Positions 2 to 18,374 are shown, numbered from the stretch's first letter. The stretch is 33,506 bases of DNA from Candidatus Omnitrophota bacterium (GCA_022013205.1 JAKLQT010000227.1:1-33506); one strand, 5' to 3'. Notes: a model not told the origin generated them from the letters alone. Program-made: numbers and translations.

Positions 2-271
2 AAGCATTATTTTAAAAATCCGAAAAATTTTCTAAAAAAAGGGCCTTGTCATATTAGTGTAGAAGCTCTTAATATAACTCCCACAGGACAGGTGCATATT
101 TGTTTTTATAAACCGGCGATTGGAAATATTAAAAGCTTTAACATTAGAGACATCTGGTTTTCTGAAAAGGCTAAATCAGTAAGAGAGATGATAAAAAAGT
201 GCACCAGAAATTGTCAATCATTAGTTAATTGTAACTTTGAAGAATCAGAAACATATATAGATCAGATATGA
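2..271 (+). CDS. C-terminal part of a radical SAM/SPASM protein, truncated by window start
   Basis: Open frame from nt 2 to TGA 269-271: KHYFKNPKNFLKKGPCHISVEALNITPTGQVHICFYKPAIGNI...IRDIWFSEKAKSVREMIKKCTRNCQSLVNCNFEE; aligns by eye with the C-termini of the next two genes (YFKNPREF.../YFLDPLTF..., C-x3-C-x6-C ending). Overlaps the next ATG as ATGA. Confidence 0.8.
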   Translation, partial: KHYFKNPKNFLKKGPCHISVEALNITPTGQVHICFYKPAIGNIKSFNIRDIWFSEKAKSVREMIKKCTRNCQSLVNCNFEESETYIDQI

Positions 272-1266
272 AACCTGAAGCCAAAAATAAACCGGAATTT
301 GCCTGTTTAGGTGTTACTGACGATTGCATGCTGCGCTGCAAGATGTGCTATAAATGGAAAGATGATATATTTATTAAAAAAGACCATTATTATGGAATAC
401 CTACGTTAGAACAATATGAAAGGTTTTTCCTCGATTTGAGAGTGCTTGTTGATGAGGGGTTTATTATTAATTTTGGCGGGGGGGAAGCTCTTTTACATAA
501 GGATATTTTTAAGCTTATAAAAATCGCGTCTTCATTAGGCTTTCGTATCAACCTTAATTCCAATGGCTTTTTAATTGATGAGGTAGTAGCGCGAAAACTT
601 GGCGAGGCAGGTTTAGTTGATATTAAGTTGTCTTTAGATAGTTTGCAAAAACAAAAGCATGATTATTTAAGAGGAGTTGATGGTGTGTATGATCAACTGC
701 GAAAAGCGATTGATAACTTGCATGCTTATGCTAAAAATGTAAATATCTCGATAATAAGTGTGATTTATGAGCAGAATTATAGAGAGTTTATCCCTCTGAT
801 AGAGTGGATCAACAATAACGAAAAAATAAACCATGTATTAGTTATGGCCGCAATGCAGCCGAATAATACGCTTCCCGAGGAACATTGGTGGGAAGGTGAA
901 TACGGGGCTCTCTGGCCTAAGGATACAGGGCAAATAGAAAAACTCTTAGACCAGCTAATCGTCATGAAAAATGATGGTTATAAAATATGCAACCCTGTCG
1001 GACAGCTTAAAGCTGTTAAAAAATATTTCAAAAACCCGCGGGAATTTGTAAAAAAGACAATTTGTAATATGTATAAAGCAATACATCTTAGCTCAATCGG
1101 ACTGATGTATTTATGTTTTGAATACGAAGTAATCGGGGATATAAAGAAAAATGATGATGTTAAAAATATTTGGCATTCAGATAAAGCGCAGCAGATAAGA
1201 GATGAGATTAAGAATTGCAAAAAAAATTGTCACTTTCTGATTAACTGTTTTTTTGAAGAGGATTGA
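268..1266 (+). CDS. Radical SAM/SPASM domain protein
   Basis: CMLRCKMC (CxxxCxxC) near N-terminus, NFGGGEALLHKDIF (GGxEPL-like), Cys-rich SPASM-like C-terminus (CKKNCHFLINC). Confidence 0.9.
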   Translation: MKPEAKNKPEFACLGVTDDCMLRCKMCYKWKDDIFIKKDHYYGIPTLEQYERFFLDLRVLVDEGFIINFGGGEALLHKDIFKLIKIASSLGFRINLNSNGFLIDEVVARKLGEAGLVDIKLSLDSLQKQKHDYLRGVDGVYDQLRKAIDNLHAYAKNVNISIISVIYEQNYREFIPLIEWINNNEKINHVLVMAAMQPNNTLPEEHWWEGEYGALWPKDTGQIEKLLDQLIVMKNDGYKICNPVGQLKAVKKYFKNPREFVKKTICNMYKAIHLSSIGLMYLCFEYEVIGDIKKNDDVKNIWHSDKAQQIRDEIKNCKKNCHFLINCFFEED

Positions 1267-1291: not shown

Positions 1292-2317
1292 ATGAGTGAA
1301 GTGTTGAAAGAGGAAGATATCCCAAATAATGCGTTGACTTACTGTGATCTGGGCATAGCTTATGAATGTAATATGAAATGCCGCATGTGTAGTTTTTGGC
1401 TGGATAGTCCATTGAATAAAGATAATGTTCTTTCTATAGAAAACTGGATGAATATTTTAAAACAAATCAGCAAATTTACAGAAAGTCATGAGTGTATGAT
1501 AAATTTTTCTGGTACTGGAGAATCTTTACTGCGTAAAGATATATTTAAGCTGATTGAATATGGCAGAAGTTTAAATCTAAAAATCCAGATAATATCTAAC
1601 GGCTTGTGTGTTAGTGAAGAAATGGCTAAAAACATCCATAATTCAGGGCGTGAGCATATTTGTTTTTCATTAGACAGCTTAAATCCGAAAACGCATGATT
1701 TTATGCGCGGGAAAGATCAAGCGCACAAGGCAGTAATGAACGCCATAGATAACATTGCTGCTTTTTCTCCTGAAACTATTATTGGGATTAATACTATTAT
1801 CAGTGGTGTTAACTTAGATGAGATTGTAGAGCTTGTGGAATGGGTCTATCAGAATGAAAATATTGCGTATATAAATTTTCAAGCTATCGCGCAGCCTTTT
1901 TCATATAATCAAGCTCCTGATGAGGAATGGTTTAAGCGAGAAGAGAATAGCCTTTTGTGGCCCGGAGATAAACAAAAAATAGAGATGACAATGAATAGAC
2001 TTATAGAGTTAAAGAGAAGGGGCTATAAAATCGCAAATGATGTAACGCAGCTTAATGCTTTCCGTAGATATTTCCTTGATCCTTTAACTTTTATCAAGCA
2101 AAACAGGTGCAACCTGGGACAAGCTAAAGTCTTAAATATAGATCCAGCGGGAAATATTGCTAGATGTCAACTTGTTGGAATAATCGATAATATAAAAAAT
2201 GGAAAGTCGCTTAAAGAGATATGCGCGTCAAATGAGGCTTGTGAGCATTTGGATAAAATTAATAAGTGCCGTAGGAATTGTCATTTGGTTGTAAGCTGCT
2301 ATTATCATGGAGAGTAG
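1292..2317 (+). CDS. Radical SAM/SPASM domain protein (paralogue of 268-1266)
   Basis: CNMKCRMC motif, INFSGTGESLLRKDIF, C-terminal Cys cluster CNLGQAKVLNIDPAGNIARCQ...CRRNCHLVVSC; same architecture as preceding gene. Confidence 0.9.
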   Translation: MSEVLKEEDIPNNALTYCDLGIAYECNMKCRMCSFWLDSPLNKDNVLSIENWMNILKQISKFTESHECMINFSGTGESLLRKDIFKLIEYGRSLNLKIQIISNGLCVSEEMAKNIHNSGREHICFSLDSLNPKTHDFMRGKDQAHKAVMNAIDNIAAFSPETIIGINTIISGVNLDEIVELVEWVYQNENIAYINFQAIAQPFSYNQAPDEEWFKREENSLLWPGDKQKIEMTMNRLIELKRRGYKIANDVTQLNAFRRYFLDPLTFIKQNRCNLGQAKVLNIDPAGNIARCQLVGIIDNIKNGKSLKEICASNEACEHLDKINKCRRNCHLVVSCYYHGE

Positions 2318-2346: not shown

Positions 2347-5300
2347 ATGGGCTATTTACAAAGAGTCATTTCAAAATTAAAGAAATATGAATTAGGCCAT
2401 AATTCTGTCAAGTTAATTACCAAGGATCAATATTTAGAGCTCTCCTTTAATGGGCAGAGATTAACCAGGGATATATGCTTGCATAGTGCGTTACTTGTAA
2501 ATGGCAGCTGGTATAGTTCAGCTCAAGGGGTTTGGCAAGTGGCAAAAAAAGATGAAGGTTTGTTTATTACTATGGATTGGAAAAAGATTCCACTGCGCCA
2601 AATCTGGCAACTTAGAAAAACCAACAGCGGTTTTAACTGGCTGGTTTATATGGATGTAAAAGAGCCGGTAAAGATCGAAAAAATGCTTTGCGGGATCATG
2701 CTTCGACAGGATTATGAAAACTGGATAAGTGCTACGGAAGAGGGGAGTTTCCCTGCTTTTAATAAATCATGGGAAAATATATTTCTGCAGGATTCAAAAG
2801 GTAAGCTGCTAGGAGTGAAGAATGTACAAAAGTTTCCTGCGGTTATATTCGAAAATTTGCAGCACGGTGTGCTGCTGCTTCAGAATTCTCCGGCAGGGGA
2901 GCAAAGCCGGGCGCTGCGTATTGAAGTAGACAGCCATAATGAACAGTTTGAGCCCAACCGGTATAAACCTTTTAACCTGAATATATATTTATTCCCAAAG
3001 GAAGAAAAGACAGCGGATTTCTTAAGTTTAAAAAATAAGCAGCTGCTGGAGGAAAGACAGCTGCGGGAAGGGAAATTAAAGTTGTCTCTTGAACATTCCA
3101 CAGTGCATCTATACTGGGATGAGAAAAAACTCACGATAAATCAGGGATTGCATGCGGCGTTACAGGTTAATAACGAGTGGTTTGATTCCAGTAAAGCGGA
3201 TTGGAAAATTGAAAGAATTAATGATCAGTGTATCTATATCGATATTGATTGGAGGCCTCTGCCGATCACACAGTCCTGGCAATTAACAGTAAAAAACAGT
3301 ACATCTTTCGAATGGAAAGTAAAAACGGATTTGAAGGAGAAGAGGACAGCGTTGATTACCAAAATGTCTCTGGGGTTAGTCTTAAATCCGGATTATAAAG
3401 AATGGTTGGGAGGCTACGATTCAGGAAAGTTTCCGCAAAATTTCGGTTCCTGGAAGGAAATGATTGAAGACAGGCCTGAAGGTGCTATTGGCTTGAAAAA
3501 CACAGATAAGCTTCCCGGTTTATTGTTTAAAAATGCTGATAAATCACAAGCAAAACTTTTGGTTCAGAACGGAGATAAAAACTCCGGAGCACGGTTTTTG
3601 CAGTCAATAGGAGAAAGCGGGTTTGATTTTCACCAGCAGATTAATATTGTTGAAAATTTAGACGATATTGAAGCATTGATCAAAGAAAAAATGGATCAGG
3701 AAATTTTGACTAAGGGGATATCTGTTGGTGACCTGAAACTTGTATGCGGGAAGGGAAAGGTAAGGATTTTCTGGAAAGATAAGGAAATTACCACCGATAT
3801 TGGCCTGCATTCAGCTGTTTGTTCCGGGGGGCGCTGGTATGACTCGGGTAAAATGAAATGGGGTATTAATAAACTATCTGCTAAGAAGCTCAGGATTGAG
3901 GTTGATTTTAATCCGTTGCCGGTAATCCAGGCCTGGGAGTTAGATTCTATTTCCGGCAATGTTTTTTCCTGGAATATATCGATGAAGCTGGCAAAGCCGG
4001 TGGAGATAACCGAGCATAAGGCGGGAATTATTCTAAACGGTGCTTACAAGGAATGGTTTAATTCTTTTGAAGAGGGTAAATTCCCTGAAAAATTCAGTTA
4101 TTGGCACGATATAATCCGTAATCGCGATGGAGAAACATTCGGAACTTATCCTGTTGATGAGCTGCCGGGAGTCATGCTCAGTCTTGATGAAAAGCATCTG
4201 TCCTTGATCCAGAATACAGATGAGTTTATAAGCGGACGTGTATTTCAAGGCCAGGTTGTGGAAACAGAGGAAACAAAGTTATATGAGAAACAGGAATTTA
4301 ATTGTTTTTCAGGTGTGCTGAAATTTGTCGAAGATCGCAATCAGATTTTGGAGTATAAACAGGAAGCACAACCATTGGCATACAGGAGCGAGACAGTATA
4401 TCTATATGCGGACAGCGCTTTTTTGCATAATAGAATAGCAGGGGTAGATGATTTTGAGGAAAAGATTAAAAAGATCAAAGCATTGACCAAGAAAAATAAG
4501 AATTTCAAGATTACGATTGGCGTTTCCAGATATAACTTTTTTAAACTGGAACAAGTGTTGAAATTCGCTTTGAGCCTGAAAGGCAAGAACATTGATTTGC
4601 GTTCATCGAAATTAAATATTTTGCCGCTTAGGCGTTTACGCAGGAATTCTATTGAATATCTTGAGGAGCTAAAAAAAATAGCTGCGGAGGAAGGCGGAAT
4701 AAACTTTACTTTAAATGATCGGGACTTTTTTAAAATGATAACATCAGTTTGCGCACAGGCAGATGCAGGGAATGAACGGCAGTTGCTGAGACTATTGGGA
4801 GTTTTGTGTGAGCATGCTTTTATCGGGCCTGCGATAATAGTTATTGATCCTTATCACCGTTGTAACGCGAATTGTATTCATTGCTGGGTGCATACTCCCG
4901 GAGTAACTCATCCTAAAGAATACTATGAGATGAAGCTTGATTTTGATAAGTTTAAAGCCATTGCGGATGATCTGGGAGATTTGATGGTTGATCTGATTAT
5001 TTTTCAAGGTGATGGCGAGCCTTTGATGCATGATCGTTTTTTTGATATGGTCAGATATGCACGGGATAAGGGTATCCAGGTGTCTTTTTTTACTAACGGT
5101 ATCCTCCTGAATAAGGCCAACGCGGAAAATGCGATCCAAAACGGAATTACCGAGATATTCTGCAGTTTGCCTGCAGGATCGGCCAAGACCTTTGCGAAAA
5201 TAAACACAAAACAAAATGAAAAAACATTTGACGATGTTTTGAGAAATCTAAAATATTTATGCGATCTTAAAAAGAAGAAATCGAAAAATAAGCCAAGATT

Positions 5301-5892
5301 GATAATGACCCATGTAATACATAATCAGAATGCGCATGAACTTGTTGAAATGGCCCAAAATGATATTGAAATAGGCGCTGATGTGATGCGCTTTTATCTT
5401 ATACGACTGGATGAAAATATAGAATTTTTAAAATTAAAGCCTAAGGATCTGGAAAAAATAAAAAGTTCACTTGATCAAATAAAGGAATTGGCAAAGGGCA
5501 GGGATATTGAATTGCTTGATACCACTGATTTTCAGCTTGAAAACTTTGAGGAAGATACCGGTTCCTGGTCGGGAAATGTGTTTCTTGAAAAAGGCTGCAC
5601 ATTAGGTTGGAACTTTTGCCTTATACCCGCCTCAGGTGAAGTGAGTTTTTGCTGTCATTTGAGGACTGTGGGGTATTTGGCAGAAAAGAGTTTTAAGGAT
5701 ATCTGGAACTCTGCTGATTATCAGCGTTTCAGATATCAGGCTAAGTTTTTGAGTGAAAACTCAACAGAAAAATTCCTAAACGGTACATCTCTTTTTGATG
5801 AATATTGCCGGCATTGTGATACGCATCAGGTGATCAGAGATGTTTGGGATCAAGTCAAATTATATAATTTAGAGGAATTTTACAGAGGATGA
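2347..5892 (+). CDS. Giant radical SAM protein with three N-terminal copies of a novel ~200-aa repeat domain and a C-terminal rSAM/SPASM module
   Basis: SD GGAGG (2333-2337) 9 nt before ATG 2347, so the ORF-track start at 2278 (inside the upstream gene) is too early. CNANCIHC at 4861-4884; FQGDGEPLMHDRF; C-terminal CTLGWNFCLIPASGEVSFCCHLRTVGYL...YCRHC SPASM-like. Three repeat units at the N-terminus. Confidence 0.9.
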   Translation: MGYLQRVISKLKKYELGHNSVKLITKDQYLELSFNGQRLTRDICLHSALLVNGSWYSSAQGVWQVAKKDEGLFITMDWKKIPLRQIWQLRKTNSGFNWLVYMDVKEPVKIEKMLCGIMLRQDYENWISATEEGSFPAFNKSWENIFLQDSKGKLLGVKNVQKFPAVIFENLQHGVLLLQNSPAGEQSRALRIEVDSHNEQFEPNRYKPFNLNIYLFPKEEKTADFLSLKNKQLLEERQLREGKLKLSLEHSTVHLYWDEKKLTINQGLHAALQVNNEWFDSSKADWKIERINDQCIYIDIDWRPLPITQSWQLTVKNSTSFEWKVKTDLKEKRTALITKMSLGLVLNPDYKEWLGGYDSGKFPQNFGSWKEMIEDRPEGAIGLKNTDKLPGLLFKNADKSQAKLLVQNGDKNSGARFLQSIGESGFDFHQQINIVENLDDIEALIKEKMDQEILTKGISVGDLKLVCGKGKVRIFWKDKEITTDIGLHSAVCSGGRWYDSGKMKWGINKLSAKKLRIEVDFNPLPVIQAWELDSISGNVFSWNISMKLAKPVEITEHKAGIILNGAYKEWFNSFEEGKFPEKFSYWHDIIRNRDGETFGTYPVDELPGVMLSLDEKHLSLIQNTDEFISGRVFQGQVVETEETKLYEKQEFNCFSGVLKFVEDRNQILEYKQEAQPLAYRSETVYLYADSAFLHNRIAGVDDFEEKIKKIKALTKKNKNFKITIGVSRYNFFKLEQVLKFALSLKGKNIDLRSSKLNILPLRRLRRNSIEYLEELKKIAAEEGGINFTLNDRDFFKMITSVCAQADAGNERQLLRLLGVLCEHAFIGPAIIVIDPYHRCNANCIHCWVHTPGVTHPKEYYEMKLDFDKFKAIADDLGDLMVDLIIFQGDGEPLMHDRFFDMVRYARDKGIQVSFFTNGILLNKANAENAIQNGITEIFCSLPAGSAKTFAKINTKQNEKTFDDVLRNLKYLCDLKKKKSKNKPRLIMTHVIHNQNAHELVEMAQNDIEIGADVMRFYLIRLDENIEFLKLKPKDLEKIKSSLDQIKELAKGRDIELLDTTDFQLENFEEDTGSWSGNVFLEKGCTLGWNFCLIPASGEVSFCCHLRTVGYLAEKSFKDIWNSADYQRFRYQAKFLSENSTEKFLNGTSLFDEYCRHCDTHQVIRDVWDQVKLYNLEEFYRG
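2404..3000 (+). repeat. Protein repeat domain copy R1
   Basis: LELSFNGQRLTRDICLHSALLVNGSWYSSAQGVW...MDWKKIPLRQIWQL...FNWLVYMDVKEPVKIEKMLCGIMLRQDYENW...GSFPAFNKSWENI...LLLQNS; aligns by eye to R2-R5. Confidence 0.8.
3073..3660 (+). repeat. Protein repeat domain copy R2
   Basis: VHLYWDEKKLTINQGLHAALQVNNEWFDSSKADWKI...IDWRPLPITQSWQL...FEWKVKTDLKEKRTALITKMSLGLVLNPDYKEW...GKFPQNFGSWKEM...LPGLLFKN...LVQNGD. Confidence 0.85.
3730..4335 (+). repeat. Protein repeat domain copy R3
   Basis: VRIFWKDKEITTDIGLHSAVCSGGRWYDSGKMKWGI...VDFNPLPVIQAWEL...FSWNISMKLAKPVEITEHKAGIILNGAYKEW...GKFPEKFSYWHDI...LPGVMLS...LIQNTD. Confidence 0.85.
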
Positions 5893-5913
5893 GGAAGTTT
5901 AAGCTTTCTTGGC

Positions 5914-6162
5914 TTGGAAATAGGGGGAACAAAAAGTATAAAATTACTTTATTCGGAGGTTTTATGCTTATTATTTGCTGCTGATAAAGATCAGCGTTTT
6001 GAAAGTATGCCTGATTTTAGTAAAAAGAGTTTTCTGGAACATAGCAAGCTTTACCTTTTCTTGAAAAATGTAATTTTTAGACCAAGATTGAGACGAGTAT
6101 CAATAGAAGACTATTATAAAAACTGTGAAAGAATGTTACTTTTTGCAAGGAAAAATAACTGA
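5914..6162 (+). CDS. Small hypothetical protein (82 aa) between the two giant rSAM genes
   Basis: Same-strand ORF filling the gap between 5892 and 6181; no recognisable motif; start codon uncertain. Confidence 0.4.
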   Translation: MEIGGTKSIKLLYSEVLCLLFAADKDQRFESMPDFSKKSFLEHSKLYLFLKNVIFRPRLRRVSIEDYYKNCERMLLFARKNN

Positions 6163-6180
6163 TAATTATTTGGAGAGAGA

Positions 6181-9100
6181 ATGAAGATTGTATTAGTTAA
6201 TTTACCGTGGAAAAAGCGAAACCAGTGGGGAGTTCGTGCCGGTTCACGCTGGCCGCATCTTAAAGATCAGACAGAGGAAAACTATCTGCCTTTTCCTTTT
6301 TATCTGGCATATGCTGTTGCTTTGCTTAAAAAAAACGGGTTTGACGCGCAGATCATTGATGCTATTGCCGAGAAAACATCATATGAATCATTTTACAAAA
6401 AGATTGTCTCCTTAAATCCGGATTTGCTTGTTGTAGAGACTTCTACTGTTACCTTAAACCATGACATGAAATTTCTTTCCCGTTTTAAGGGTAACTTCCC
6501 GATTGCATTATGCGGCCCTGATGTTCATATCGCAAAACCTGAGTTCTTAAAAAAGAATAATAACATTAATTACGTTTTGTTCGGTGAATATGAAGCAAGC
6601 CTTCTTGAGCTTGCGCAAAAACTAAAAAGTAACGATACTCTGGGTGCACTCAAAGGCATATTGTACAGGCAAGGCGATAAGATTATTAAAAATTCTCCGC
6701 GTGAGCTTATCAGCGATCTTGATTGGCTGCCATGGCCCCAAAGGAAACTCCTGCCTGTAAAGAAATATAATGATGCTCCGGGAGACATACCTTTGCCTTG
6801 TGCTTCCATGTGGGCAAGCAGGGGATGCCCTTATAAATGCTCATTTTGCTTGTGGCCTCAGGTGATGTATGGGGGGAATTCATACAGGGTCAGAAACGTT
6901 AAAAATGTTGTTGATGAAATAGAATATCTTGTAAACGAACTGGGATTTAAGTCAGTCTATTTTGATGATGATACCTGGAATGTCGGCAGAAAGAGGATTA
7001 TTGATTTTTGCCGGGAGCTAAAAATCAGAAATCTGCAAATACCGTGGGCGATTATGGCTAGAGCTGAATTGATGGATGAGGAACTGCTTGAAATAATGCG
7101 TGATGTAGGCCTTTTTGCTGTTAAATACGGTATTGAATCATCCTCTCAAAGGATCTTAGATAACATCAACAAGGGCCTTAATCTCAAAAAAGCCGAGGAG
7201 ATGATCAAATACACAAAATATTTGGGTATAAGAACTCATCTTACATTCACTTTCGGCTTACCCGGAGAAACACAGCAAACAATAAAGAATACGATTGATT
7301 ACGCGCTGCTGCTGAATCCTACATCAGTGCAGTTTTCTCTGGCAACACCTTTCCCCGGAACTAAATTTTATGAAACTATGGATAAAAAGGGATATATACT
7401 GACAAAGGATTTGGAAAAATTCGATGGAAATCACAGTAGTGTTATCCGCACGGAAAAACTAACGGCAAAACAGCTTCAGAATGCTAAAAAATTGGCCTAT
7501 GTTAGATGGCAGCAGCATTACCGGATGAAACGCAAAAAACTTGCTTTTGAACAAAAACCGTTAAAGGCAAAGCTAAAGAGTTCTTTGATCGAAAAGGGAG
7601 CGTTTGAAACAGGGCTGAAAGTGCTCAGGTTTCTTATAAGAAAAATATTTCCCCCCCCTGAGCGTATGAGGAATTTTTTAAATAAAAATCTCTGGATCAT
7701 AGAAGAGTTTATTTCAAGCGGCAATATTAAAATAAGGTTTGGGGAAGGGCAGGTGCGTCTTTATTGGAAGGATAGAGAAATAAGTAAAGGGGTGGGCTTA
7801 ACCACGTCTTTTTACTATGGGGAAAGGTGGTTCGATTCTTCGCAGGCTAATTGGAAACTGGAAAAAGAGTCTCCTGAGGTGATAATAGTAAAATTAAATT
7901 GGGATGATGTGCCGGTGCGGCAATGCTGGAAGATATCAATTGATACGGACCATAGTATCAGCTGGACTGCCCAGATGGAAGTTAAAAGAGCCGTGCAGCT
8001 TTTAGAATATAAATCCGGAATTATGCTGCAGCCTGATTTTAATATGTGGAAGGATGACCTTGGTGTTGGTAAGTTCCCTCAATTGCAGGATTGGGAAGAG
8101 ATCGAGCTTTATAATTCAAAAAGCAAAAAATTGACTGCTTTTCAGGATAGGGATGAGCAGGAAAACAGATTGCCTGTGCTTGAGCTTTCTCTTGCGGGGC
8201 CGATGGAAAACAACACGTATCCGCAGATACAGAATACGGATTTAAAAACAAAAGCAAGAATACTTCAGATGCGTTGCTTAAAAATAGAACAATTTGCTCC
8301 AGGTCAGTATGACTATTTAGACCTAAAGCTGAGATTGGAGGATAGCCTAGTCCAGCAGTCAATATCTGCATATAAAAGAAGAGTGCCTATGAAATTCTTC
8401 AAGACTCAATTGGCCAACCAGGGCCTGTTTCAGATTTTAAAGAAAATGCGTCCTAAAAAAATTGCTGAACATTATCTGGATATACTGGGAGTGCTTGATG
8501 GAAGCTATGCGTATAAGGGGCCTTTTTGTGTCCAGATAGACCTGACAAACGATTGTAATAATGACTGCATCGGTTGCTGGTGTAACTCACCTCTGCTTAA
8601 TGAAAAAAAAATAAGTGATAATATTAAGCAGCAGACCCTGCCTCTGGAGGTCGTTAAAAAAACGATTGATCAGCTTTATGCTATGGGGACTAAGGAGATA
8701 TACTTTGCCGGCGGCGGAGAACCTTTTATGCATCCAGATATCATGAAAATTCTTGAGCATGTTAAGTCAAAAGGGCTGCGCTGCTATATAAATACCAATT
8801 TTACGCTTGTAAATGAAGATATTGTCAAAAAGCTGGTTGAACTCAAAGTTGATAACCTGGTTATTAGTGTTTGGGCGGGTGAGCCGCAGACATATCTAAA
8901 AACTCATCCGAATAAGTCAGAAGAAATGTTTTTTCAGATAAAAGGGATGTTAAAGCTTCTTAATTCTATAAAAAAAAACCTGCCGCATACAAACATATAT
9001 AATGTGATTTCCAGCATGAATTATGATGAGCTTGGGCAAATGATGGATTTCGCCATAGCGACTGATTCGAACTCACTTGAATTTACGGTGATTGACACAA

Positions 9101-10365
9101 TACCTAATGCCACAGATTCCCTGATCCTAACTGATGATCAAAGACAGCATGTGCTTAAAAGCGCTAAGGATATAGAGGAGCGCTTAAAGACTAAAGATAA
9201 AAATAAAGTAAAAGTATTTGGTTTTGAGCAATTTATTCGCAGGGTCAGTAATGTGGATGCTAAATGTGCTAAATACGATAAGGATATACTCGCTCAACTG
9301 CCATGTTATATCGGCTGGCTGTTCGCGAGAATTCTCGCGGACGGAAATGTAAATTTCTGCCTTAAAGCGCATCGTATTCCGGTAGGAAATATCTATGCGG
9401 ATAGTTTTTTGCATATCTGGAATAACACAAAGCAGCAGGAATTCAGAAAGAGGGCCTTGCACGCGCCAAAAGATGATGTGTTTTTCTCTTTTATAGGCAA
9501 TGACCCGGATGTTAAAGTCGGCTGCTATAAAAGCTGTGATGATCTGGCCCGTAATGTGTGTATGCATAAAAAGATTCAGTCTTTGAGCGCTCTGGAAATA
9601 TATTTTCTCAGATTATTTTTGCTTGGAGCAAAAATCAAAAAATGCTTTAAAGAGAAAAAAGTAAAGCAAACATTCCAGAGCCATGTGTACAAAAGGAAAA
9701 AACAGGCTCAGGGCGGAATTTCTCAAAACAAACTACATGTCCAAATGCATGATGAGGGTATAAAACTTTTTTGGGATAAATTGGAATTAACTCAGGGTGT
9801 CGGATTGAATTCTTCTGTTTGTATTTTCGGCCTTTGGCATGATTCTTCAAAAGCAAAATGGGAAGTAACAAAGCGCGGCAATAATGAACTGGTTATAAAA
9901 AACAACTGGCAAAATATTCCTATAGCCCAGGAATGGCAGATTAAGATTGATAGCAGTAATTCCCTGCTGTGGCAGATTAATACGCGCGTGGACTCAAGGA
10001 TCGAGATTGAGCAGAGCAAAGCGAGTATGATGCTTTCATCTGTTTATACCAGGTGGAATACAACTGAAGAACGCGGCAAATTTCCATTAACTATGTCCTG
10101 GAATGAGGCCAACATAAAAAATTCCCAGGTTAAACGCGTATCTGTGCTGGCAGCCAAAAATAATACGCAAAGAATGCCGGGCATCAGTTTTGATTTCAGC
10201 CTGACCCAGGGGCAAATAAAACCGCAGGTTCAAAATTCCGATAAGATCATAAATGCCAGGGTAGTATCGGTAATACGCACAGAGGAAAACAGCGGTAAAG
10301 TTTTTCTGCCTGGAAACTATGAGTATTTTTCCGTGAAAATTGATATAGGAGATAATGATGGGTAA
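6181..10365 (+). CDS. Giant multidomain protein: B12-binding-like domain, rSAM 1, repeat domain R4, rSAM 2/SPASM-like, repeat domain R5
   Basis: SD GGAGAGAG immediately upstream of ATG. N-terminus typical of B12-binding rSAM (FPFYLAYAVALLKKNGFDAQIIDA...CGPDVHIAKPEF...GEYEASLLELAQ); CPYKCSFC at 6826-6849; second CNNDCIGC at 8554-8577; CYIGWLFARILADGNVNFCLKAHRIPVGNI near the end; two repeat domains. Confidence 0.9.
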   Translation: MKIVLVNLPWKKRNQWGVRAGSRWPHLKDQTEENYLPFPFYLAYAVALLKKNGFDAQIIDAIAEKTSYESFYKKIVSLNPDLLVVETSTVTLNHDMKFLSRFKGNFPIALCGPDVHIAKPEFLKKNNNINYVLFGEYEASLLELAQKLKSNDTLGALKGILYRQGDKIIKNSPRELISDLDWLPWPQRKLLPVKKYNDAPGDIPLPCASMWASRGCPYKCSFCLWPQVMYGGNSYRVRNVKNVVDEIEYLVNELGFKSVYFDDDTWNVGRKRIIDFCRELKIRNLQIPWAIMARAELMDEELLEIMRDVGLFAVKYGIESSSQRILDNINKGLNLKKAEEMIKYTKYLGIRTHLTFTFGLPGETQQTIKNTIDYALLLNPTSVQFSLATPFPGTKFYETMDKKGYILTKDLEKFDGNHSSVIRTEKLTAKQLQNAKKLAYVRWQQHYRMKRKKLAFEQKPLKAKLKSSLIEKGAFETGLKVLRFLIRKIFPPPERMRNFLNKNLWIIEEFISSGNIKIRFGEGQVRLYWKDREISKGVGLTTSFYYGERWFDSSQANWKLEKESPEVIIVKLNWDDVPVRQCWKISIDTDHSISWTAQMEVKRAVQLLEYKSGIMLQPDFNMWKDDLGVGKFPQLQDWEEIELYNSKSKKLTAFQDRDEQENRLPVLELSLAGPMENNTYPQIQNTDLKTKARILQMRCLKIEQFAPGQYDYLDLKLRLEDSLVQQSISAYKRRVPMKFFKTQLANQGLFQILKKMRPKKIAEHYLDILGVLDGSYAYKGPFCVQIDLTNDCNNDCIGCWCNSPLLNEKKISDNIKQQTLPLEVVKKTIDQLYAMGTKEIYFAGGGEPFMHPDIMKILEHVKSKGLRCYINTNFTLVNEDIVKKLVELKVDNLVISVWAGEPQTYLKTHPNKSEEMFFQIKGMLKLLNSIKKNLPHTNIYNVISSMNYDELGQMMDFAIATDSNSLEFTVIDTIPNATDSLILTDDQRQHVLKSAKDIEERLKTKDKNKVKVFGFEQFIRRVSNVDAKCAKYDKDILAQLPCYIGWLFARILADGNVNFCLKAHRIPVGNIYADSFLHIWNNTKQQEFRKRALHAPKDDVFFSFIGNDPDVKVGCYKSCDDLARNVCMHKKIQSLSALEIYFLRLFLLGAKIKKCFKEKKVKQTFQSHVYKRKKQAQGGISQNKLHVQMHDEGIKLFWDKLELTQGVGLNSSVCIFGLWHDSSKAKWEVTKRGNNELVIKNNWQNIPIAQEWQIKIDSSNSLLWQINTRVDSRIEIEQSKASMMLSSVYTRWNTTEERGKFPLTMSWNEANIKNSQVKRVSVLAAKNNTQRMPGISFDFSLTQGQIKPQVQNSDKIINARVVSVIRTEENSGKVFLPGNYEYFSVKIDIGDNDG
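7723..8343 (+). repeat. Protein repeat domain copy R4 (between the two rSAM modules)
   Basis: VRLYWKDREISKGVGLTTSFYYGERWFDSSQANWKL...LNWDDVPVRQCWKI...ISWTAQMEVKRAVQLLEYKSGIMLQPDFNMW...GKFPQLQDWEEI...QIQNTD. Confidence 0.85.
9730..10362 (+). repeat. Protein repeat domain copy R5 (extreme C-terminus)
   Basis: IKLFWDKLELTQGVGLNSSVCIFGLWHDSSKAKWEV...NNWQNIPIAQEWQI...LLWQINTRVDSRIEIEQSKASMMLSSVYTRW...GKFPLTMSWNEA...MPGISFDFS...QVQNSD. Confidence 0.85.
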
Positions 10366-11998
10366 AACAGTGCTGATAAATTGTCCCCCCTGGGGAGTGG
10401 TTATGCCTCCTTTGGGGGTCGCGTATCTTTCCTCTTACCTTAAATCCAAAGGCAAAGAGGTTGAGATCTTTGATCTAAATCTGGATCTATACAAGAAAGC
10501 CGGTACAAAGCAGAGGCTTTTTTGGGAGCTGGATACGATAAATAAAATGCCTCCGGTTGATATAGCAAAAAATCTATACAAAGATTTCAAAGAAGAAATT
10601 TATCTTTTTGTCGATAAGCTGGCACCTTTTTCTATTGTCGGGTTTTCCGCGAATAATTTAATAAGTACTACGTTTGCAGGGGTAGTTGCCGGGATGATTA
10701 AAATCAAATATCCTGAAAAAATTATTGTCCTTGGCGGGCCGGGATGTTTTTATAGCTGGGACCGCAAGGCTGTGCCTAAAGACGCGGTTGACTTTTTTGT
10801 TATCGGAGAGGGAGAGCAAGTGCTTGAGCGATTTATAGATTATTTTTCCAATACGGAAAATCCTGCTCCCCAAAACCTGAAAATCCCCGGTTTATTACAT
10901 AATAACACAGTAAAAAAGCAAAAATTTTATCCTGCTGCTTTTGTAAAGGATTTGGATTCTATCCCTTTCCCTGACTTTAAAGAATTCGATTTGAGTCAAT
11001 ATAATTATGAGAAGAAATACCGGCCATTACCTATGTTGATGAGCAGAGGGTGCATCAATCGCTGCAGTTACTGTATAGATTGGTATATGTGTTCAAATTT
11101 CCGGGTAAGGAAGCCGGAGAATATTATCACGGAGATAGAACATCATGCTAAGCTCTATGGCATAACACATATTGAGTTTAATGATTTGCTGTGTAACGGT
11201 AATCTCACTCATCTTGAGAAATTCTGCGATCTTCTTGTCAATTCTGAAACTAAGATAAGATGGATCAGTTATGCGGCGATAAGAAAAAACATGAGTGATG
11301 AATTACTTGAAAAAATAAAAAAATCCGGGTGCAATTCCCTTTGTTACGGCATAGAAAGCGGTTCTGATGCTGTTTTAAAGCGTATGAACAAACATTATAA
11401 CAGGGCCGATGCCTCTGATCTTATAAAAAGGACTTATAATGCCGGTATTGAAGTACGCATGAATATAATAGTAGGATTTCCCGGTGAAAGTGTTGATGAT
11501 TTTGAGCAAACACTTGAATTCGTGCGGCAGAACAGAAAATACATCACTCAGGTGACCAATGTTTCCTCTTTTGTTCTGATGCCTGGTTCTGACCTGTCTG
11601 TTTATCCGCACCGCTTCGGGATAACTTATCGAGATGTTACTGACCCGGGAAGCTGGCGGGATGATTTAGGGCTTACTCAGGATATCCGTAATAAAAGAGT
11701 ATCGCGTACTTGTGAGCTGCTGGAAACTCTTCGGATCAGGAACCTTATTGTTAATTACCAGAAAAATCCGTGCCAGGATTTGGAGCCGCTGGGACAGAAA
11801 GATATTGTAAAGGGTAGGCGAAAGGAGCCGATAGAGCAGCATAGAGAGGATAAAGGATCCTTTCGTAAAAAAAACACGCGCAAGTCTTTTTTTCAAAAGA
11901 CAGTGCTTGTTTTGCTGTTTGTTTTCAGCTTAGCTATGGATTTTTATTTGTTGATTTTAAAAAAATTAAGAGGCTCGATAATTTTTCCCGGAAACTGA
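10358..11998 (+). CDS. B12-binding-type radical SAM protein with C-terminal hydrophobic (TM) segment
   Basis: MGKTVLINCPPWGVVMPPLGVAYLSSYLKSKGKEVEIFDLN, VLGGPGCFYSW, GEGEQVLERF, CINRCSYC, GIESGSDAVLKRMNKH, GFPGES. ATG 10358 preferred over ORF-track 10355; overlaps upstream stop. C-terminus KTVLVLLFVFSLAMDFYLLILKKLRG. Confidence 0.88.
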   Translation: MGKTVLINCPPWGVVMPPLGVAYLSSYLKSKGKEVEIFDLNLDLYKKAGTKQRLFWELDTINKMPPVDIAKNLYKDFKEEIYLFVDKLAPFSIVGFSANNLISTTFAGVVAGMIKIKYPEKIIVLGGPGCFYSWDRKAVPKDAVDFFVIGEGEQVLERFIDYFSNTENPAPQNLKIPGLLHNNTVKKQKFYPAAFVKDLDSIPFPDFKEFDLSQYNYEKKYRPLPMLMSRGCINRCSYCIDWYMCSNFRVRKPENIITEIEHHAKLYGITHIEFNDLLCNGNLTHLEKFCDLLVNSETKIRWISYAAIRKNMSDELLEKIKKSGCNSLCYGIESGSDAVLKRMNKHYNRADASDLIKRTYNAGIEVRMNIIVGFPGESVDDFEQTLEFVRQNRKYITQVTNVSSFVLMPGSDLSVYPHRFGITYRDVTDPGSWRDDLGLTQDIRNKRVSRTCELLETLRIRNLIVNYQKNPCQDLEPLGQKDIVKGRRKEPIEQHREDKGSFRKKNTRKSFFQKTVLVLLFVFSLAMDFYLLILKKLRGSIIFPGN

Positions 11999-12097: not shown

Positions 12098-13264
12098 GTG
12101 AAGATACTGATGGTGCATCCGCATGATTTGTTCTCTAAGGCTGAGCCGTGGACGACAAGGATACGGAATATCGCAAAGCAATTTAAAAAAAATAGCCACG
12201 AGGTCAGGGTGGTTTATTTTCCGCTTGTAAATCGTGAGAATGAGCAAATCTTTTATGCCGATGGTATTGAATTTATACCGCTATCCCGGCAGGTAGGTAA
12301 GGGGAATTTTTTAAAAAACATCCGGTTTTTTATTAAAGAGAGTAAGTGGGCGGATGTTATCCATTTTCAAAAATGCTTTCACTATGCTGCCTTGCCGGTA
12401 CTTATAGGCGGTTTCTTAAATAAGAAACCTTTACATTATGACTGGGATGACTGGGAGATTAAAATTTTTCATTATTGCGCGAAACAGCCCTGGCTTACCG
12501 GAGTATTTCTGGGGGCATTGGAAAGGTTTATCCCCTTACTCTGTGATACTATCTCTGTATCCAGTTTGAGATTAAAACAGGAATGTCTGCGTTACGGGAT
12601 AAATGAAAAGCTGATTTTCATGGCTCCTGTGGGGGCTGATCTTGAGCTTTTTCATCCGAGAATCTCTCCTGTTCGAATACGGGAGCGTTATAACATAGAC
12701 TCGCCTTTAATAAGCTATATTGGCCAATTACACGGCGGGCAGTACGCGGAGCAATTCATAAAAGCGGCAAAAATAGTGCTCAATAGCATCAGGGACATTA
12801 CGTTTATGATCGTTGGAGGAGGATACCGCCTTGAAGAGTTAAAAACTCTGGCAGCTGTTTTAGATATAGATGAGCATATCATTTTTACCGATTCTGTTGC
12901 ACATCAAGAGGTGCCTTTATTCATGGCTGCTGCGGATATCGCGATCGCTTGTTTTGAAGATAATGATATTACAAGGTGTAAAAGCCCGCTTAAAATAGCC
13001 GAATACATGGCTTGCGGAAAGCCTATTGTGGCCAGCAATGTCGGGGAGGTAATAAATATGCTCGGCGGAGCGGCAGTTATAACAGAGCCGGATAATCCCG
13101 AGGACCTGGCACGAGGCATAATTAAACTGCTTGAAGATGAGCCATTGCGAAAACGGTTATCCGTCAAGGCGCGTCAGAGGGCTGAGGAAATATACAATTG
13201 GAAGAATACAACGGAGAATTTATTAAGGGCTTACAGGTATAGTTTGGGAGTAGTTAGCTATTAA
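12098..13264 (+). CDS. Glycosyltransferase family 4 (GT-B)
   Basis: GTG start with SD AAGGAAG; GT4 signatures SYIGQLHGGQYAEQFIKAAKIV, FMIVGGGYRLEEL, HQEVPLFMAAADIAIACFED, KSPLKIAEYMACGKPIVASNVGEV. Confidence 0.92.
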   Translation: MKILMVHPHDLFSKAEPWTTRIRNIAKQFKKNSHEVRVVYFPLVNRENEQIFYADGIEFIPLSRQVGKGNFLKNIRFFIKESKWADVIHFQKCFHYAALPVLIGGFLNKKPLHYDWDDWEIKIFHYCAKQPWLTGVFLGALERFIPLLCDTISVSSLRLKQECLRYGINEKLIFMAPVGADLELFHPRISPVRIRERYNIDSPLISYIGQLHGGQYAEQFIKAAKIVLNSIRDITFMIVGGGYRLEELKTLAAVLDIDEHIIFTDSVAHQEVPLFMAAADIAIACFEDNDITRCKSPLKIAEYMACGKPIVASNVGEVINMLGGAAVITEPDNPEDLARGIIKLLEDEPLRKRLSVKARQRAEEIYNWKNTTENLLRAYRYSLGVVSY

Positions 13265-13282
13265 TACAAAGAAGGGAAGAAT

Positions 13283-14215
13283 ATGAAAATATCGGTTATA
13301 ATACCTGTTTTTAACGAACAGGGCAGCTTGGCTGACTTGCACAGAAAACTTAATGCTGTTTTGGAAAAAATGGATTTATCCTATGAAATAATTTTCGTTG
13401 ATGATGCAAGTACAGATAAGAGTTCCGGCATATTGGAGTCAATTAGTAATGCCGACAATAAAGTTAAGGTTATCACATTGAGCAGGAATTATGGGCAAAC
13501 CCAGGCAATTGCCGCGGGAGTTGATGCAACTATTGGAGAAATAATCGTTACTATGGATGCCGACCTGCAGAATGACCCGGCCGATATACCCAGGATTCTG
13601 GCTAAGCTTGATGAGGGGTATGACGTTGTGAGCGGTTGGCGCAAAAAGAGAAAAGACGATTTATGGCTGAAAAAAATACCGTCAATCCTGGCAAATAACA
13701 TAAGTGCCTGGATTACAGGAGTAAAGATTCATGACCTGGGATGCACCTTAAAGGCGTATCAAAGCCGGATTTTGAAAAATATTGAGTTCCATGGCGAAAT
13801 CCACAGATTACTCCCTTTGTACGCGGCTATACAGGGCGCAAAAATAACCGAAATACCGGTTAAACATTATCAAAGAAAGTACGGAGAGTCAAAATACGGG
13901 ATTTCACGTTTTTTTAAAGTTATTCTCGATCTGTTCGCGGTAATGTTTATGTGGAAATTTCTTCCCAAACCTATTTATGCTTTTGGAGGCATTGGTTTGG
14001 CTTCTTTAGGCCTTTCCGGAGTGATCGGACTGGTTATTGTTTTTAGAAAAGTATTTTTTTCAGGTGTTTGGGTAAGCCCGCTTTTATTTATTTTTGTTAT
14101 TTTCTTTTTGATCGGCATACAGTTTATACTTATGGGAATTCTGGCGGAATTTATCCTGCGGCTTTATTTCGGGGTGAAGGATTTAAAAAGATATAAAATA
14201 AAATATAAGGAGTAG
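13283..14215 (+). CDS. Glycosyltransferase family 2, polyprenyl-phosphate sugar synthase-like (DPM1/ArnC type) with C-terminal TM helices
   Basis: SVIIPVFNEQGSLADL, EIIFVDDASTDKS, ITLSRNYGQTQAIAAGVD, MDADLQNDP, hydrophobic C-terminus. Confidence 0.93.
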   Translation: MKISVIIPVFNEQGSLADLHRKLNAVLEKMDLSYEIIFVDDASTDKSSGILESISNADNKVKVITLSRNYGQTQAIAAGVDATIGEIIVTMDADLQNDPADIPRILAKLDEGYDVVSGWRKKRKDDLWLKKIPSILANNISAWITGVKIHDLGCTLKAYQSRILKNIEFHGEIHRLLPLYAAIQGAKITEIPVKHYQRKYGESKYGISRFFKVILDLFAVMFMWKFLPKPIYAFGGIGLASLGLSGVIGLVIVFRKVFFSGVWVSPLLFIFVIFFLIGIQFILMGILAEFILRLYFGVKDLKRYKIKYKE

Positions 14216-14226
14216 AAAGCTTTTAA

Positions 14227-15930
14227 GTGTATATATTGGGAATTTGTGATAGTCAGGACGCGGGGGCAGTACTCTTAGATACATCAGCTAATGAGATAAC
14301 TGCTGTAAATGAGGAGAGGATCTCACGAATTAAATTATCGGGAGGCTTTCCAACTGGTGCCATTAAAGAAGTGTTTAGTTTAAAAAAGATTAAGCCGCAG
14401 GATATCGGGTTGGTTGCTCTTGCCTCACATATGACGCCATCATTCATCTTGAGAAGTTTAAGCACTGCCCATAGAAAATTAAAACAGAAAAACAAGCAAT
14501 TCAGTTTATTGCTTTCCTTATATATTTTTTATCAGGTTATAGCTAAATGCAGTATAATCCTTGAGTTTATTGACTCAAGATTATCTTGCTTCATTATTAA
14601 AAGAAAGTTAAAAAAGTTAGGCATAAAAGCTGAATTGCGTATTGTAGAACACCATCATGCTCATGCATTCGCTGCTTATATTACTTCCGGCATGCAAAAG
14701 GCATTGATATTTACGATTGACGGATTAGGTGATGGCGTTTCTTTTAGCGTGAATATCGGGGAAAAAGGCTGCCTGAGGCGCATATATGAGGGGAAAGCCT
14801 TAAATGACATAACACTTTATTATTCAAGGCTTACGGAATTTTTAGGGTTTGCTCCCATACAGGATGAAGGCAAGGTGATGGGGCTGGCGGCTTATTCTGA
14901 TAATTATTGTGTATTAAATGAAGCCCGAAAGCTGCTGCGCGCTAATAACGGAAGATTCAAAAGCAGGAATATTTTTTACGCTTTTTCAAAAGACAGGATT
15001 ATTTTTCAAAGGCTTAAAGCGAAACCGCGGGAAGATGTAGCGGCTTCTTTTCAGATCCATGCTGAAAATACAATCTGTGATATTGTGCGTTATTGGGTGA
15101 AAAAAACCGGTATAGCCGATATCGCGCTTTCCGGCGGTTTTTTCGCGAATATAAAGGTTAATCAACGGATTGCCCAGATGCGTGAAGTGCGCGGGGTTTA
15201 TGTTTATCCGCATATGGGAGACGGGGGACTGGCTTTGGGTGCCGTTTATGCCCTTTGGAAAACGCGGCCATTTGAATTTAATGATCTTTTCTTTGGAACT
15301 TCTTATTCCGATGAACAGGTGCAGGCGGTTTTAAATAAATACGGTTTGAAATATGAGAGGATTGAAAATATTGAACAGAAGATTGCTTTTTTACTAAGTG
15401 AGGGCAAAATAGTAGCGCGCTTTAGCGGCGCTATGGAATACGGCCCGCGCGCCTTGGGTAACCGCTCAATCCTTGCGCAGGCTACGGATTCCGCTATACA
15501 GGAATCTCTAAACAAAAAGCTGGGCAGAGATGTTTTTATGCCCTTTGCTCCTTCAATGTTGATGGAACATAGAAATGATTGCTGCCAAGGTGCGGATAAG
15601 GCGGCTTACTCAGCTCAATTCATGAATATAAGTTTTTCCTGTACAGAATATTTTAAAAACAGATGCCCCGCGGTAGTTCACAAGGACGGTAGTACAAGGC
15701 CGCAGCTTGTTTCCTTGCGGAATAACCCGGGCTTTTACAAAATCCTAAGTTTTTATAATAAGTATACCGGTATCCCCGCGTTAATTAATACCAGTTTTAA
15801 TATGCATGAAGAGCCGATTGTCCGTTCGCCCGAGGAGGCAGTACACGCTTTTGAAAGAGGAAAACTGGATTATTTGGCAATTAATAATTTTCTTATAAAA
15901 GGAGGATGGTATGAAAAAAGGAAAGGATAA
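14227..15930 (+). CDS. Carbamoyltransferase, NodU/CmcH (TobZ-like) family
   Basis: GTG start; YILGICDSQDAGAVLLD, NEERISRIK, EHHHAHAFAAYITSG, SGGFFANIKVNQRI, FSGAMEYGPRALGNRSILA, NTSFNMHEEPIVRSPEEAVHAF: family hallmarks. Confidence 0.93.
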   Translation: MYILGICDSQDAGAVLLDTSANEITAVNEERISRIKLSGGFPTGAIKEVFSLKKIKPQDIGLVALASHMTPSFILRSLSTAHRKLKQKNKQFSLLLSLYIFYQVIAKCSIILEFIDSRLSCFIIKRKLKKLGIKAELRIVEHHHAHAFAAYITSGMQKALIFTIDGLGDGVSFSVNIGEKGCLRRIYEGKALNDITLYYSRLTEFLGFAPIQDEGKVMGLAAYSDNYCVLNEARKLLRANNGRFKSRNIFYAFSKDRIIFQRLKAKPREDVAASFQIHAENTICDIVRYWVKKTGIADIALSGGFFANIKVNQRIAQMREVRGVYVYPHMGDGGLALGAVYALWKTRPFEFNDLFFGTSYSDEQVQAVLNKYGLKYERIENIEQKIAFLLSEGKIVARFSGAMEYGPRALGNRSILAQATDSAIQESLNKKLGRDVFMPFAPSMLMEHRNDCCQGADKAAYSAQFMNISFSCTEYFKNRCPAVVHKDGSTRPQLVSLRNNPGFYKILSFYNKYTGIPALINTSFNMHEEPIVRSPEEAVHAFERGKLDYLAINNFLIKGGWYEKRKG

Positions 15931-16670: not shown

Positions 16671-18374
16671 ATGAAAAACAAGCCAAGTGAGAAAAATAAT
16701 TATTTCATTTTATTGATCGTACTGCTTTGCTTTCATTTAGCAGTCAACCTTTTGTTTTTTAAAGGCAATCCTTTACCTGAAGGCAAGGATAGTTACGCGC
16801 ACGCGAGTACCTTTAATAATTTTCTGCAGATAGCAAAAACAGGCGCGAAGCATCCGTTTTATATAGCCGATAAAGGGATCCTATACAATCTGATCTTCAT
16901 ATCATTTGATTATCCTCCGCTGTTTTACTTTGTGGCTTATCTGCTTAAATCTCTTTTATCCATGATTTATATTAATGCCGCTTTATTTACTGCCAGCTTA
17001 TTTTTTATCATTTTGATTGTAAGTGTTTACAAAATCGGGTTGCATATAAACAAAAATACAGGGATCCTGGCGGCTTTTGCCTGCAGTTTCTATCCGATTG
17101 TTCATCTTTCCTCCAGGCATTTTAACCTTGAACTTGCAACCGCCGCGATGGTTGCCTTGACTATCTGGTTGCTTATCGAAACAGATCTCTTTAAAAATCT
17201 GTTCTTTAGCGTTTGTCTGGGGATAAGCCTTGGCCTGGGCATGCTTACGAAACAGATATTTATTGTTTTCGTAACAGCACCGTGTTTGTTTTATGCCGCT
17301 TATTCCCTGAAGCGTGTATGTGAGAATAAGCGTGGCCGTAGATTAAAAGTCAAAAACATGTTCATTGCTGTGAGTATCGGGGTTGTTTTAAGCGCGATTT
17401 TTTATTGGAATAATCTTGTTTATGAAGGTATTGCCGCCAGGGCCGGTTTTGTCGGGGCAGTTGCGGGTGAAAGTATCCTTTCATTAAAGCATATGCTTTA
17501 TTATCCGTTTTCCCTCTATCAGACCATCGGCCTGTTTTTTCTGCTGGTATTTTTTATCGGGCTTATCAATTTGCCCAAAGCCGGGTATTTATACATGTCC
17601 TTGTTTTTAATATGGCTGTTATTCCCAATTGTTTTTTTGAGCTTTTTCACCCTTAAGTATGCTGAGTACACAATTTCCGTATTGCCTGCTATAGCCCTGA
17701 TCACCGCGGCCGGGATTTCCGCTCTGCGGAGAAGGCGTACGCGTAACGGCTTGATAATGGTTATTTTTATTTTTAGCTTTGTGTTGTATTATCAAATTAT
17801 TTGCGGCAATAGGCGGTTATTTTATTCCAGCTGGGATATTGATAAACAGTACATATTTATGGCTCTTAAACTGCCGGATGCCGCGAATGGGGATAATCTT
17901 TTAGTTCAGGACGTAATCAAGGAAATCGGCAATAGCAATAAAACTATCGGTATCTGCTACGATAATACAGATCTCTTTTTCCCGACGTTTTTGATGAAAA
18001 GAATTTTTTCATATACAAAGATGAACTCATCAATCGTTGATTTTTCTTTTAACACGGCAGTATTTTTTAAAAATATTAATAACTTTGATATGCTAATCTA
18101 TGTGACACGTTCTAAAAATCATTGGTTAACAAGACAATCATTTTATGAATTCATAAAGAAGCTTAATGAAAACTGTAACATCAGGATTGCCTTTAGCGAT
18201 AAGTTTGCGGATGATTACGCTTATGCTGACAGGAAACGGATTTCTATAGCGGCTAATTTAGCTAAAAAACTGATAAATGGAAAAAAGGAATATGGCCTAT
18301 ATTGTTATATGCGATTTTTGAATGAGAATACCGCGTCTTATGAACATGTGTATTTTTATCAAAGGAAAGACTGA
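16671..18374 (+). CDS. Polytopic membrane glycosyltransferase (PMT/ArnT-like)
   Basis: Many hydrophobic helices, GKDSYAHASTFNNF near N-terminus in PMT-like loop position, no soluble GT motif. Confidence 0.75.
   Translation: MKNKPSEKNNYFILLIVLLCFHLAVNLLFFKGNPLPEGKDSYAHASTFNNFLQIAKTGAKHPFYIADKGILYNLIFISFDYPPLFYFVAYLLKSLLSMIYINAALFTASLFFIILIVSVYKIGLHINKNTGILAAFACSFYPIVHLSSRHFNLELATAAMVALTIWLLIETDLFKNLFFSVCLGISLGLGMLTKQIFIVFVTAPCLFYAAYSLKRVCENKRGRRLKVKNMFIAVSIGVVLSAIFYWNNLVYEGIAARAGFVGAVAGESILSLKHMLYYPFSLYQTIGLFFLLVFFIGLINLPKAGYLYMSLFLIWLLFPIVFLSFFTLKYAEYTISVLPAIALITAAGISALRRRRTRNGLIMVIFIFSFVLYYQIICGNRRLFYSSWDIDKQYIFMALKLPDAANGDNLLVQDVIKEIGNSNKTIGICYDNTDLFFPTFLMKRIFSYTKMNSSIVDFSFNTAVFFKNINNFDMLIYVTRSKNHWLTRQSFYEFIKKLNENCNIRIAFSDKFADDYAYADRKRISIAANLAKKLINGKKEYGLYCYMRFLNENTASYEHVYFYQRKD

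Follow-up and report, generated by a model that had tools for sequence, protein, structure and literature searches.

A supersandwich domain shared by radical SAM enzymes and Wzt-type exporter ATPases of Omnitrophota as a probable glycan reader

A 33,506-nt stretch of DNA from Candidatus Omnitrophota bacterium (GCA_022013205.1, JAKLQT010000227.1:1-33506; this whole stretch is called the window) encodes two giant radical S-adenosylmethionine (SAM) proteins, A and B, which together carry five copies of a repeated domain, here called R. What might such a domain do beside radical SAM catalytic modules? The main finding is a link of R to polysaccharide exporters, which is not visible from the window alone. 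Analogy with known exporters suggests that R is probably a new family of glycan-binding domains, docking radical SAM "writers" and an exporter "reader" on one lipid-linked glycan.

The two proteins and their R units are arranged as follows.

2347-5892, plus strand: protein A, open reading frame (ORF) of 1181 amino acids (aa) with its ATG at 2347; R1-R2-R3, a linker of about 130 aa, radical SAM and SPASM domains
2380-3051, plus strand: R1 domain, start of the N-terminal tandem of protein A (profile match, E 3.5e-92)
3049-3705, plus strand: R2 domain, N-terminal tandem of protein A (profile match, E 9e-89)
3709-4383, plus strand: R3 domain of protein A, predicted supersandwich fold (profile match, E 6.8e-97; AlphaFold2, predicted local distance difference test (pLDDT) 95.2)
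6181-10365, plus strand: protein B, 1394 aa; B12-binding/radical SAM module (HpnJ/AprD4-like), R4, radical SAM/SPASM module, R5 (ORF, Pfam, NCBIfam, PDB)
7699-8397, plus strand: R4 domain, between the two radical SAM modules of protein B (profile match, E 3.8e-92)
9712-10359, plus strand: R5 domain, C-terminus of protein B (profile match, E 1.3e-89)

Pairwise alignments of the five units, each about 205-225 aa long, showed 27-33% identity over about 174-210 residues, with scores 26-54 standard deviations above shuffled sequence. BLASTP comparison of protein A units with protein B units gave E values of 2e-16 to 2e-26, and a profile of the five units recovers exactly R1-R5 in the window (E 9e-89 or better, best 6.8e-97). 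These results establish the homology of all five units, which the initial annotation had proposed as a repeat in two giant radical SAM proteins. The motif that it had read by eye (WxDSSxAxW, PxxQxW, GKFP, LPG, QNxD, AR) is real, with 18 columns invariant across R1-R5, and its label "W-rich" is apt for a Trp content of 3.0-3.6%. Its copy number of five holds for the window, but the source genome has ten copies, the other five lying on contig C31.

Pfam and NCBIfam name only radical SAM, SPASM and B12-binding parts in proteins A and B, and neither holds a family that matches more than one of 65 R copies; each listed family matches one copy, at chance level. The earlier impression of an unnamed family was therefore correct. 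A search of the PDB by sequence with the R profile likewise gave chance-level matches only. AlphaFold2 prediction of R3, supported by the 65 related copies, gave a nearly all-beta model (pLDDT 95.2, predicted template modelling score 0.91), and a distant copy attached to an ATP-binding cassette (ABC) ATPase, only 15-20% identical to the window copies, was modelled with the same supersandwich fold (pLDDT 92.6). Foldseek comparison of the R3 model with the PDB revealed galactose-mutarotase-like supersandwiches (E 2e-7 to 1e-4; template modelling score about 0.5-0.69 for both models), among them the N-domain of the Flavonifractor galactosaminidase FpGalNase, the N-domain of GH36 alpha-galactosidases, OpgG and galactose mutarotase (GalM). 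R shares with these proteins the large twisted all-beta fold, but is only about 10% identical to them and gives no sequence-profile match. The ABC-linked copy has a neighbour list even richer in carbohydrate-active proteins, and the neighbours of both kinds of copy are mostly carbohydrate-active enzymes; significant fold matches in BFVD are a few large chlorovirus-type proteins. Two models of different copies thus agree with the original guess of an all-beta super-sandwich, and on these models R has a known, galactose-mutarotase-like fold while its sequence family is new.

R was found in 12 of 12 genomes searched of the source's family, in 35 of 147 relatives and in 74 of 386 Omnitrophota genomes, all of them metagenome assemblies. 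Beyond Omnitrophota, a DNA-pattern scan tuned to R3 gave eight confirmed loci, all again from Omnitrophota, and the viral contigs searched held no relative of R. Altogether, 61 fetched loci and the window contain 238 R copies (a few counted twice where fetched loci overlap) on 104 ORFs. Their main hosts, assigned by motifs and single-sequence searches with a Pfam check on representatives, are three: Wzt-type ABC ATPases (33 ORFs with one to five, mostly two to five, C-terminal R copies), radical SAM or B12-radical SAM proteins, in which R units flank the catalytic modules, and PMT_2 membrane glycosyltransferases with R at their C-terminal side (four ORFs). The remaining carriers are small stand-alone or truncated ORFs. 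The surveyed loci thereby display the recurrent co-occurrence with radical SAM and glycosyltransferase genes that had been expected of a new domain family. Among the individual proteins, a 1515-aa protein (L088 3088-7635, genome G117) carries a C-terminal R and three radical SAM modules, of which two are of the B12 type, and a 1891-aa frame ahead of R-bearing radical SAM genes (L046 1-5676, genome G005) consists of about nine diverged R domains and has no Pfam domain.

The five further copies of the source genome lie in a single ABC transporter ATPase on contig C31, here called Wzt-R5 (in this name, as in ABC-R5 and ABC-R2 below, the number counts R copies and does not denote the window units R2 or R5). 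Among structural relatives of its nucleotide-binding domain (NBD), the Aquifex aeolicus O-antigen Wzt scores best (E 7e-64) and TagH/TarH come behind it; the adjoining membrane protein matches Wzm (E 9e-21). By sequence, the R-bearing ABC proteins are Wzt-type polysaccharide exporter ATPases. R lies C-terminal to the NBD in 33/33 ORFs, a Wzm-like permease gene is found directly upstream in 27/33 (gap -54 to 246 bp; some of the others lie at contig or region ends), and a radical SAM gene follows within 8 kb on the same strand in 24/33. In two genomes enzyme and exporter are one protein, each time adjoining a Wzm-like gene: ABC-R5-radical SAM-SPASM is a single 1856-aa frame in L047 (G006), and ABC-R2-B12-radical SAM-R-radical SAM-SPASM a single 1902-aa frame in L063 (G020). 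On C31 itself, both the Wzt-R5 gene (L038 10579-14643) and a WecA-like gene (L038 7267-8284) are split by apparent frameshifts; each is a single open frame in the sister genome G002.

In canonical exporters of this kind, such as those of A. aeolicus and E. coli O9a, the place of R is taken by the carbohydrate-binding domain Wzt_C (PF14524), which likewise stands C-terminal to a Wzt-type NBD beside Wzm. The A. aeolicus domain binds capped O antigen, recruits the chain for export and can act in trans (PMC9445017). Single R units encoded as separate genes immediately after the ABC-R gene (L068, L070 and L075) recall this action in trans (PMC9445017). R is nevertheless not Wzt_C, because PF14524 matches neither the R-bearing ABC proteins nor any of the 65 R copies, and because predicted fold and size differ: Wzt_C is a jelly roll of about 140 aa, whereas R is a predicted supersandwich of about 215 aa, mostly in two to five copies. 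Unlike Wzt_C, R is also fused to radical SAM enzymes and PMT_2 transferases. Canonical Wzt_C proteins occur in the source genome as well, on contigs C224 and C54. Since R occupies the position of the carbohydrate-binding domain of Wzt exporters, glycan recognition by R appears considerably more likely than before, and the best explanation by analogy is that R works like the Wzt carbohydrate-binding domain, unrelated to Wzt_C in family and fold.

The gene order of contig C244 in G002 connects this exporter with the window. A WecA-like glycosyl-phosphotransferase gene (PF00953), a flavin adenine dinucleotide oxidoreductase gene, Wzm, Wzt-R5 and five radical SAM genes are followed by protein A, protein B, a B12-radical SAM gene, two glycosyltransferase genes, a carbamoyltransferase gene and a PMT_2 gene, and these match, in order, source contig C31 and then the window. 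Because this order covers C31 and then the window, the window most probably forms the latter half of a glycan locus that depends on the exporter, contigs C31 and C202 of the source genome being the two halves. The locus, on C244 as on C31 plus the window, holds the WecA-type initiator, Wzm, Wzt and glycosyltransferases of an ABC-exporter-dependent, O-antigen-type pathway. Around proteins A and B, the window contains the following genes.

268-1266, plus strand: stand-alone radical SAM/SPASM protein, without R (Pfam; syntenic with G002 C244)
1292-2317, plus strand: second stand-alone radical SAM protein, without R (Pfam; synteny with G002 C244)
10355-11998, plus strand: B12-binding/radical SAM protein, without R, overlapping the end of protein B (Pfam)
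12098-14215, plus strand: two glycosyltransferases, Glycos_transf_1 and Glycos_transf_2 (Pfam)
14227-15930, plus strand: carbamoyltransferase, Carbam_trans_N/C (Pfam)
16671-18374, plus strand: PMT_2 membrane glycosyltransferase, without R (Pfam)

Further downstream, a 949-aa frame (23096-25945) is an unusual fusion of a DegT/DnrJ/EryC1 sugar aminotransferase with a PMT_2 membrane glycosyltransferase. Two 85-nt copies (23007-23091 and 25540-25624; 88% identical) of a palindromic element, a CCCCGGCTTTAAAACCGGGG-type hairpin, sit in frame in two PMT_2 ORFs that are neighbours, each time in the C-terminal part, and an exact-pattern scan of the genome found only these two. A DUF362 protein (32250-33350), encoded where the glycan locus ends, has an N-terminus that by eye resembles a twin-arginine signal (RREFIKKG).

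Proteins A and B belong to the Radical SAM superfamily, both with a CxxxCxxC motif and a Radical_SAM profile match above the cut-off (protein A: Radical_SAM 4.7e-18, SPASM 1.2e-10 in Pfam). Among NCBIfam models, HpnJ (TIGR03471) fits the B12-radical SAM module best, with 270.6 bits against an equivalog cut-off of 577.6, and the closest solved relatives of the modules are AprD4 (8e-29) and the cytosylglucuronate decarboxylase BlsE (1e-8). These nearest named relatives act on sugar-containing small molecules or lipids, AprD4 and BlsE on sugar-bearing substrates, but the scores of the modules of A and B lie far under the equivalog cut-offs. We know of no HpnJ, AprD4 or BlsE enzyme that carries R.

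A comparison between genera showed that the exporter R copies are 28-42% identical beside an NBD of 68% identity, as expected of a domain that tracks a variable glycan. R copies of radical SAM proteins are 50-58% identical, their catalytic parts 70-72%. Of the five window copies, R3, which adjoins the radical SAM module, and R4 are conserved best. On a FastTree phylogeny of these short, diverged domains, of which we rely on the coarse clustering alone, R copies group by host and position rather than by genome (the tree needs 15 host changes versus 66 in shuffles; 10 versus 54 for ABC versus radical SAM hosts). Position changes number five for 39 exporter copies (minimum 4) and two, the minimum, for R1-R3. 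Each position has therefore kept its own identity for long. Recent homogenisation within genomes was rejected, the copies being positional orthologs.

Together, these data are consistent with a pathway in which a lipid-linked glycan would be begun in the cytoplasm by a WecA-type enzyme and lengthened by glycosyltransferases. The R-bearing radical SAM and B12-radical SAM enzymes A and B would hold the growing chain via R and alter its sugars, possibly by methylation, epimerisation, deoxygenation or a ring change; given that the same R stands on radical SAM enzymes of the exporter operon, it is simplest to suppose that they hold and modify that very chain. Once the chain is complete, the tandem R domains at the C-terminus of the Wzt-type ATPase would grip it, and the ATPase and Wzm would export it. 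In Aquifex a methylated cap is read in a similar way by the carbohydrate-binding domain of Wzt; modification may here license export. WbdD and Wzt of E. coli O9a follow the same logic, an enzyme modifying the end of the lipid-linked chain and the binding domain of the exporter recognising that end. WbdD is a kinase/methyltransferase, whereas the candidate modifiers here are radical enzymes that share R with the exporter; to our knowledge, WbdD shares no binding domain with Wzt.

Several observations weigh against a glycan-reading role of R. The supersandwich is also found in the YidC periplasmic domain and in PBCV-1 capsid proteins, which are likewise Foldseek neighbours of R3, and the fold alone is therefore no proof of sugar binding. 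Many of the conserved Trp residues may be core residues. Most stand-alone radical SAM genes of the locus lack R, and a low-sensitivity scan detected a glycosyltransferase in 25 of 39 R loci of at least 12 kb. Genomes with R and genomes with Wzt_C overlap as by chance (8 observed, 9.3 expected; 147 genomes, p 0.66). The overlap gives no support to the idea that R has simply replaced Wzt_C: the two occur independently of each other, and the R-bearing Wzt therefore represents an additional exporter type.

R could instead be an assembly module, its exporter and radical SAM copies binding each other and building an enzyme-exporter complex with no contact to the glycan. Partners encoded side by side and fused in two genomes, together with tandem arrays of varied copy number, would fit such a scaffold. 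We consider this unlikely in view of the clustering of copies by host and position and the fast divergence of the exporter R sequences. Moreover, the PMT_2 family acts on the membrane face opposite to the cytoplasm, so R-bearing PMT_2 proteins could not meet cytoplasmic partners, and R stands at the very place where Wzt requires a glycan reader. Recognition of a non-sugar part of the substrate, either the headgroup of the lipid carrier or a protein or peptide acceptor, seems quite improbable: radical SAM/SPASM enzymes often modify peptides, the NCBIfam models matched here include maturases of ribosomally synthesised and post-translationally modified peptides, and R is borne by PMT_2 transferases as well as by cytoplasmic proteins, but no precursor peptide gene was noticed among neighbours that encode WecA, Wzm, Wzt and glycosyltransferases, and a lipid headgroup is constant where R is highly variable. 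That R is itself a mutarotase-, epimerase- or lyase-like enzyme, as fold neighbours such as galactose mutarotase, GH36, GH38 and dermatan sulfate epimerase might imply, is very improbable, as the 65 copies have no conserved His and no acid above about 70%, unlike the conserved catalytic His and Glu of GalM, and catalytic domains seldom come in tandem arrays of three to five diverged copies.

The known substrates of radical SAM enzymes include nucleotide sugars, antibiotics, peptides and lipids; we know of none of these enzymes that has been linked to a glycan polymer of the cell surface and to the exporter of that polymer. A search of a literature collection returned no precedent for radical SAM enzymes with O-antigen export, for Omnitrophota with radical SAM enzymes or for mutarotase-like domains with radical SAM enzymes. 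Export of capped glycans by ABC transporters is already known. If R reads glycans, it would be a new family of carbohydrate-binding domains, would add a second type to the glycan readers of Wzm-Wzt exporters and would offer an experimentally reachable case of radical modification coupled to export. Tentatively, radical chemistry might be how Omnitrophota decorate or cap a lipid-linked glycan of their surface, with one domain family placing the writers and letting the exporter accept modified chains only; in two lineages, writer, reader and motor would be united in a single protein. A function is thereby suggested for a locus rich in radical SAM genes in a hardly cultured phylum: our analysis suggests that in uncultured Omnitrophota one sugar-reading module serves two ends, the chemical modification of a surface sugar chain and the selection of that chain for export.

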